A DNA stretch of 64,000 bases from Adlercreutzia faecimuris. GTDB lineage: Bacteria > Actinomycetota > Coriobacteriia > Coriobacteriales > Eggerthellaceae. The stretch lies in contig NZ_JAJMLW010000004.1 of assembly GCF_022669055.1 (NCBI RefSeq), positions 124,001-188,000 of the forward strand, in the 5' to 3' direction. This document shows positions 35,200 to 56,671 of the stretch, piece by piece. The first letter of the stretch is position 1. Every line of letters begins with the position of its first letter. Both the position numbers and the translations under genes were made by a program. Under the pieces are notes generated by a model that saw nothing but the letters and a program-made list of their open reading frames with translations, searched no databases and was not told the origin of the DNA.

Positions 35200-35344
35200 C
35201 GTGGACAAAAAACGGCGATCTCGCAGGTTTTTGGCGGCTCAGGGGAGGAGTGGCGCGTTGCCGCTTTGCATTTCCCCAGGTCAGAAGCTTGGGCCTTGAA
35301 AAGCCCTGCGCACGGGCCCGCGAGATCGCCGTTTTTTGTCCACG
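35200..35344. repeat. 145-bp inverted-repeat element, copy A
   Basis: Perfect 25-bp ends in inverted orientation (35200-35224 and 35320-35344), core GTGGACAAAAAACGGCGATC, around a 95-base interior. The same end sequence occurs twice more at 56506 and 56647-56671. The interior lacks a gene; its inner flanks show partial likeness, in reverse order, to those of the copy at 56506. Confidence 0.85.
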
Positions 35345-35346
35345 TG

Positions 35347-35404
35347 GATGCGAGATCGCCGAATTTCGTCCATCTTCCTGGACAAAAACCCGCGATTTCG
35401 CATC
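35347..35404. repeat. Imperfect palindrome with 26-base arms and 6-base loop, copy A
   Basis: Arms 35347-35372 and 35379-35404, loop TCTTCC. Arms are variants of the neighbouring end repeat (GCGAGATCGCCG...GTCCA and TGGACAAAAACCCGCGAT). It is two bases from the 145-bp element; the 56449 locus has the same arrangement in mirror order. Confidence 0.8.
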
Positions 35405-41681: not shown

Positions 41682-41809
41682 CCCGGAGGACGGGAGGGGC
41701 GGGAGGGGTTCGCGCGCAGTTTCACAGCGACTGGAACAGCCCAGTGGTCTGTTCCACCAAGCGAGGACTGTTTGAGCACGAACTCCTCCCGCCCCTCCCG
41801 CCCTCCGGG
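41682..41809. repeat. 128-bp near-perfect long hairpin after the LytTR gene
   Basis: CCCGGAGG-a-CGGGAGGGGC and GGGAGGGGTTCG (41682-41712) pair with CGAACTCCTCCC and GCCCCTCCCG-c-CCTCCGGG (41779-41809), one mismatch and one G-T in 31. An apical TGGAACAG/CTGTTCCA stem (41732-41739, 41749-41756) sits on top. It starts four bases after the stop. The rest of the spacer to 41988 shows nothing else. Confidence 0.82.
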
Positions 41810-50778: not shown

Positions 50779-50943
50779 ATGGCAAGATAGCGAGGTTTGG
50801 CATACTGCGGAGACGCCGCAGGCGGCGTTTTAGCATCAAGCATCGCCTGCGACTCGCTAAAACCCCAGGTCGCCACAAGGCGAGGTCTGCGAAGGCCTCG
50901 CCTTTTCGTCTTGAGAGTATGCCAAACCTCGCTATCTTGCCAT
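50779..50943. mobile_element. 165-bp element with perfect 28-bp terminal inverted repeats (MITE-like)
   Basis: The ends (50779-50806 and 50916-50943) are perfect inverted copies; core GGCAAGATAGCGAGGTTTGG. The 109-base interior folds into three further stems: ACGCCG/CGGCGT (50813-50828), GTTTTAGC/GCTAAAAC (50827-50834, 50856-50863) and AAGGCGAGG/CCTCGCCTT (50877-50885, 50896-50904), the last followed by TTTT. It has no gene. The element could be a miniature inverted-repeat transposable element or a structured RNA. A two-base AT flanks both ends but is part of the palindrome, so a target duplication cannot be claimed. Confidence 0.75.
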
Positions 50944-56448: not shown

Positions 56449-56500
56449 GCGACATCTCGCCTTTTTGTCCAGAATCTTGGACAAAAAGGCGAGATGTCGC
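56449..56500. repeat. Perfect palindrome with 23-bp arms and 6-base loop, copy B
   Basis: Arms 56449-56471 and 56478-56500 are perfect inverted copies (core TGGACAAAAAGGCGAGATGT), loop GAATCT. Same geometry and related sequence as 35347-35404. Confidence 0.87.
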
Positions 56501-56505
56501 ATGGG

Positions 56506-56671
56506 CGTGGACAAAAAACGGCGATCTCGCAGCCTTGCGCGTCCCTTTGGAAGAAGGAGCGCGCGCATGCTTCGGGAATCTCCTGGTGAGAATTATTCTT
56601 CAGTTGAATAATCGAGGCGTCCGCCGCCAAACGGCGCGATTTCGCTGCGAGATCGCCGTTTTTTGTCCACG
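56506..56671. repeat. 166-bp inverted-repeat element, copy B
   Basis: Perfect 28-bp inverted ends (56506-56533 and 56644-56671), core GTGGACAAAAAACGGCGATC, identical over 25-27 bases to the ends of 35200-35344. The 110-base interior has a central ATTATTC/GAATAAT hairpin (about 56591-56611). No gene. Lies 45 bases before the tRNA-Pro -35 box. Confidence 0.85.

Follow-up and report, generated by a model that had tools for sequence, protein, structure and literature searches.

BIME-1/RIP of E. coli and the Correia elements of Neisseria are intergenic units of ~100-150 bp in which inverted repeats surround an IHF-binding middle. In invertible promoters and DNA invertons, a short segment bounded by inverted repeats is oriented differently in different relatives. 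REPINs consist of short inverted repeats around a variable spacer, exist in many intergenic copies, and are linked to a gene family, the RAYTs, that is thought to act in trans (Bertels and Rainey 2011, PMC3116915). The EDxHD homing endonuclease I-Bth0305I reportedly forms a dimer on a target site almost 60 bp long (PMC3943268).

The elements described here resemble REPINs in their short inverted repeats, variable spacer, high-copy intergenic distribution and linked gene family. They differ from REPINs in that the linked enzyme appears to be an EDxHD/DUF559-like nuclease and not a Y1 HUH transposase. In addition, their arms are not REP hairpins, the spacing of the arms is helically phased, a core is common to the arm families, and old sites seem to be updated in place. 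We estimate a probability of roughly 0.6 that they serve a chromosomal EDxHD-type nuclease family as its scattered DNA sites, REPIN-like in character, a reading that draws on sequence comparison.

Inverted-repeat elements in the window and the genome

We analyzed a window of 64,000 nucleotides (C4:124001-188000) from an Eggerthellaceae-type genome of 2.79 Mb in 6 contigs. An initial annotation of the window had described a 145-bp unit with perfect 25-bp inverted ends, followed by a palindrome with 26-base arms (copy A), and the same two parts in reverse order at a second place (copy B). The long inverted repeat of copy A was borne out, with perfect 25-bp arms at 35200-35224 (+ strand) and 35320-35344 (- strand) and a total length of 145 bp. 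Its small palindrome is present at 35347-35404 but is imperfect, with 5 mismatches in 26 bases between the arms at 35347-35372 (-) and 35379-35404 (+). Copy B does have the opposite order. It starts with a small palindrome (56449-56500) whose perfect 23-bp arms occupy 56449-56471 (-, outer) and 56478-56500 (+, inner), and continues with a long repeat (56506-56671) whose perfect 28-bp arms occupy 56506-56533 (+) and 56644-56671 (-). The 20-bp end core GTGGACAAAAAACGGCGATC occurs in the four exact copies that had been annotated (35201+, 35324-, 56507+ and 56651-), one of them within the right arm of copy A, while shuffled sequences are expected to contain 0. Both copies are intergenic, also as annotated.

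The long arms of copy A belong to a genome-wide family that we call arm family i (GTGGACAAAAANNSGCGATCTCGCA). Searching the whole genome for this arm with ≤3 mismatches gave 44 matches, against 0 in a reversed-pattern control; the family is thus not limited to copies A and B and occupies ~17 loci, all intergenic. The two-part layout, for which the initial annotation had no name, resolves into a long inverted repeat with additional copies of its own arm. At every family i locus a pair of inverted arms is accompanied by a third copy, which lies outside one of the pair at an offset of exactly 30 bp; at about half of the loci a fourth copy is also present and forms a small palindrome with the third. 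The two halves of the small palindrome of copy A are these third and fourth arms, and in copy B the inner arm of the palindrome has the 30-bp offset from the long repeat. The elements are oriented arbitrarily relative to genes. Three compact arm-i elements (L031, L038 and L042) have a further small palindrome in place of the core interior, giving five arm copies. At L032, L042 and L043, tandem arms translate in frame as MRDRxFLST peptides and can therefore give rise to false open reading frames or lengthen real ones. An apparent CRISPR array, with repeated IHAALASGD-type translations, lies between two close arm-i elements on another contig (L040:1958-2862, G000:C3).

Besides family i, at least two further arm families are abundant in the genome: family ii (CATATCCATTTYGKCGAGTTTYCCGAGG, 20 loci) and family iii (CAGAAAATGCGACTTATCACA, ~13 loci). 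Family iii, a sister family whose nuclease is the closest paralog, has the same 30-bp third-arm offset. A third element in the window carries arms of yet another family (ATGGCAAGATAGCGAGGTTTGGCATACT) at 50779-50806 (+) and 50916-50943 (-), with an inverted-repeat score of 28, and inspection of its interior revealed a core-like sequence, AAAACCCCAGGTCG, at 50859-50872 (+). The window also contains a 128-bp inverted repeat without a core, with G-rich 31-bp arms (41682-41809).

The core CGTTTCCSCAGGTCA is spread through the order, and several different arm families usually enclose it. The interior of most family i copies contains it as CGTTTCCCCAGGTCAG; copy A has CATTTCCCCAGGTCAG at 35269-35284 (+), one mismatch from that sequence. 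Copy B has no recognizable core within 3 mismatches, and some other copies also lack a clear one. With ≤2 mismatches, we counted 47 cores in this genome, 60 in G001 (a genome of the same genus) and 29 in G006, and reversed controls gave ~0. Most of the core sites that we examined in these genomes are bounded by long perfect inverted repeats whose arms have other sequences. The breadth of the system is visible from the core and not from the arm, because exact arm i is absent from the other genomes among 138 of the family; a scan of named genomes with arm i gave no match either. Scanned with the 17-base core, named genomes gave mostly chance matches in other phyla, which we used as a negative control. 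Outside Coriobacteriia, 69 of the 70 chance 17-mer matches had no long inverted repeat, and the sole exception was an uncultured MAG with arms of the G001 type.

Other settings of the core were found elsewhere in the order. At five loci from other families (L226, L208, L230, L083 and L213) it lies within arrays of short direct and inverted motifs (GACTACACG, CACTCTTCGGTCGG, CTGGCTACCACC and TTACTCCCCAT), often followed by a ATAGAGTGGGAATAAG-like motif. In one genus (L219, L220 and L222) a core variant, CGTTTCCGCAGGTCAG, immediately follows a tRNA gene or a stop codon and is not enclosed in long arms. Like BIME-1/RIP and Correia elements, the elements are short intergenic units with inverted repeats around a middle segment. 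Their core appears unlike the IHF consensus. They further differ in that their arms vary from species to species and from one family to another within a genome, and in having a linked nuclease.

A putative nuclease gene family beside the elements

Two close pairs of elements were found to enclose homologous genes. The genome has eight paralogs of this gene, and an inverted-repeat element with its own arms lies near all eight. Arm ii stands on both sides of L254 and arm iii on both sides of L253; L255 is flanked on each side by a sequence resembling arm i, complete with the third arm at 30 bp, and the arm adjoining L260 is that of the third element in the window. The arm at the nuclease that adjoins arm i has diverged (TGGTCAGAAAACGCCGATCTCACA), and family i is therefore matched to its precise enzyme by similarity. 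Across the order, we found an element within 600 bp at 49 of 66 nuclease loci (three of the 66 being overlapping duplicates) and none within that distance at the other 17 at the threshold used. Elements number 1.21 per kb within 250 bp of the nuclease, 0.77 per kb from 250 to 500 bp, and 0-0.16 per kb beyond 500 bp. We regard the association of element and nuclease as close to certain, and the arms are probably the nuclease's own sites.

The encoded protein of ~320 aa has invariant SPxE, DLxW, EY, H, D, RR and T motifs. The residues of its catalytic pattern (SPxE179, D224, H242 and D251) are invariant in all eight paralogs. Each of the eight also matches the Pfam REase MTES_1575/DUF559 families, with a best E value of 5e-5 that is below the curated cut-off, and the match to the EDxHD homing endonuclease structure PDB 3r3p is weak (E 0.55). 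We therefore assign the protein provisionally to the EDxHD-type (Vsr / I-Bth0305I / DUF559-like) nucleases, an assignment that is weak at the profile level. The E-D-x-H-D residue pattern is the same by alignment as that of the EDxHD homing endonucleases. The genes differ from theirs in being chromosomal, multi-paralog and flanked by their own elements instead of intron-borne, and the profile similarity is weak. The gene is present in 242 of the 274 genomes of the order that we examined, one named example being the hypothetical protein WP_320677929.1 of Collinsella aerofaciens. Collections of phages, plasmids and viral contigs contained none except for one Collinsella record. At the nuclease loci of G101, G084, G086, G094 and G110, several copies have a single in-frame stop, which suggests gene turnover.

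The initial annotation had compared the elements to a REP/REPIN- or MITE-like family and had pointed to a RAYT/TnpA-type gene as the partner to look for. The comparison holds in outline, in that this is an interspersed intergenic family of inverted repeats; membership among REP/REPINs does not, since the linked gene encodes a nuclease and not a RAYT. We rejected a RAYT partner: the sole Y1/RAYT-type gene of the genome (L045, G000:C3:465961-466293, 284 aa) is flanked by its own unrelated inverted repeats (GGACAACGGGGACG...GTAGG), a separate REP-like system. A true REPIN/RAYT family would account for the paired inverted repeats with a variable middle and for the presence of one Y1 gene. Given the repeats of that gene, and arms that are not self-palindromic (by inspection, GTGGACAAAAANNSGCGATCTCGCA has no REP-type internal stem and no GTAG), we consider such a family extremely unlikely.

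The elements might instead be MITE-like, moved by a transposase yet to be named, with the nuclease genes as passengers. Perfect terminal inverted repeats, a length of ~100-200 bp, intergenic position and multiple copies are all features shared with MITEs. Yet in none of the families examined do the arms enclose a transposase; the gene inside or next to the elements is a nuclease, and in every family tested it is the paralog of the matching arm type. No target-site duplication is evident at the 20 family-ii copies. Old copies at orthologous sites also carry updated arms, as described below. Together these observations make a MITE-like origin improbable.

Helical phasing, arm coupling and apparent evolution in place

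The distances between the two arms of an element fall into discrete steps. In family i they follow one register (94, 104-105, 116-117, 127, 137-138, 147 and 157-158), in family ii they are 127-130, 140 and 149-151, and in family iii 91, 112-114, 125-126, 133-135, 145 and 155. With all 80 elements (7 families) taken together, the best-fitting period was 10.65 bp (p≤0.0005; range 10.5-10.65 bp), and it was 10.6 when each distance was counted once. The two arms of an element are thus on the same helical face. Steps of ~10.6 bp indicate that the element acts as duplex DNA, and the phasing points to DNA bent into a loop by proteins rather than an RNA stem-loop.

The variable positions in the middle of the arm are the same within one element more often than between elements, significantly so in 5 of 7 families. 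The p values for six families are 0.008, 0.17, 1e-4, 0.011, 5e-5 and 0.004; coupling was not significant in family ii (p=0.17), and the small family G6e gave no signal. In family G1c the mid-arm differs between elements and is identical in both arms of most elements. At two compared orthologous sites (L157/L244 and L144/L238), the core has opposite orientations in the two species. Arm coupling and core flips fit recombination between the two arms, and repair of quasi-palindromes could be an alternative source of the coupling. The flips are, in this species-level comparison, reminiscent of invertons. The elements differ from those in that no serine or tyrosine invertase is seen beside them, their orientation is not tied to a gene, and many sites have the same arms.

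A structured RNA, with the inverted arms as the stem of a transcript and the core as its conserved loop, would explain the strong predicted hairpins and the co-variation of arms within elements. A single-stranded loop offers no obvious explanation for length steps of ~10.6 bp, however, and the core changes orientation at orthologous loci. We rejected a known RNA family, as Rfam covariance models matched only tRNAs. A structured RNA is accordingly very unlikely.

We compared element sites with G001, whose stretches were chosen for containing cores except where they are orthologous to the window. Four family-ii sites are comparable (L143, L144, L157 and L158), and all four hold an element at the same place in G001, where the arm is TGGCCATTTGCTTCGAAATTCCGAGG. 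One of these family-ii sites has a local arm variant, CATTTCGT, in both species, suggesting that the element there evolved in place. G001 also has a counterpart of the window's third element (50779-50943) at the same site, with a different but related arm. The initial annotation had proposed looking for empty sites in relatives. At site B, that of copy B, the G001 sequence is contiguous and contains no element, an empty site located with less than single-base precision. Site A, that of copy A, has no element there either, but the G001 sequence ends at that point in a contig break. At L032, the G001 element belongs to another family and is ~260 bp away. With site B empty in the relative, family i would be the youngest family. 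Old sites, by this comparison, apparently keep their position with updated arms, and most appear to be inherited vertically.

The nuclease genes were compared in the same way. In a tree of 34 nucleases, those of the two species form the pairs L254/L273, L260/L281, L259/L269, L257/L265, L256+L258/L261 and L253+L255/L277, with support of 99-100, and most of the paired loci are syntenic. The orthologous nucleases L254/L273 and L260/L281 adjoin different arms. The arm next to L273 is the very one found in place of arm ii at dispersed G001 sites, and L281 adjoins the arm type of the G001 site orthologous to the third element of the window. These arms at orthologous dispersed sites show that arms and nuclease co-evolve. 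Similar arms accompany the sister genes L253 and L255, and protein identity correlates with arm similarity across 14 nucleases (Mantel r=0.53, p=5e-5). The nucleases diverge faster than their neighbors, with 44-57% amino acid identity in three pairs versus flanks that are 84-91% identical in nucleotides. We did not take dN/dS as proof, as synonymous sites are near saturation and the flanking reading frames are partly antisense.

Domesticated nucleases with a host function would be another reading, in which the elements serve the chromosome as sites of looping, nucleoid organization or regulation, and co-evolution arises from some conflict without selfish movement. The synteny of element sites and nuclease loci between the two species agrees with this, as do a helical phasing suited to a looped complex and the arbitrary orientation of elements to genes. 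Against it stand the rapid change of the nucleases relative to their neighbors, the nuclease copies with in-frame stops, and the absence of family i sites in the relative. We regard a host function as unlikely.

A model for nuclease-linked sites

Under our preferred reading, that the elements are dispersed sites of the nuclease family, a nuclease oligomer would bind both inverted arms, with the DNA bent as a loop over the core, to which a shared factor may bind. The nuclease would then cut or nick the variable middle of the arms, and rejoining would invert the interior and correct one arm to the other. An element might occasionally be copied in trans to new intergenic sites, as in REPINs, while the nuclease genes and most old sites would pass vertically. 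A new paralog, such as that from the L253/L255 duplication, would pair with a new arm family, i, which would have gained sites absent in the relative. We put cutting or recombination, and spread in trans, at about even odds.

A literature search found no description of a nuclease paired with dispersed sites, an absence that is not proof of novelty. We lean toward an undescribed class of selfish or semi-selfish system across Coriobacteriales, in which each of several paralogous EDxHD nucleases would have its own scattered set of helically phased inverted-repeat sites, co-evolving with it in place and undergoing self-recombination. If so, it would be a second, independently evolved answer to the role that RAYTs play for REPINs, from a different enzyme superfamily. 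Nuclease genes now annotated as hypothetical, present in 242 of 274 genomes, would gain a concrete biochemical target. The dozens of co-diverged pairs of arm and nuclease would offer a naturally occurring training set from which to learn a DNA-recognition code.
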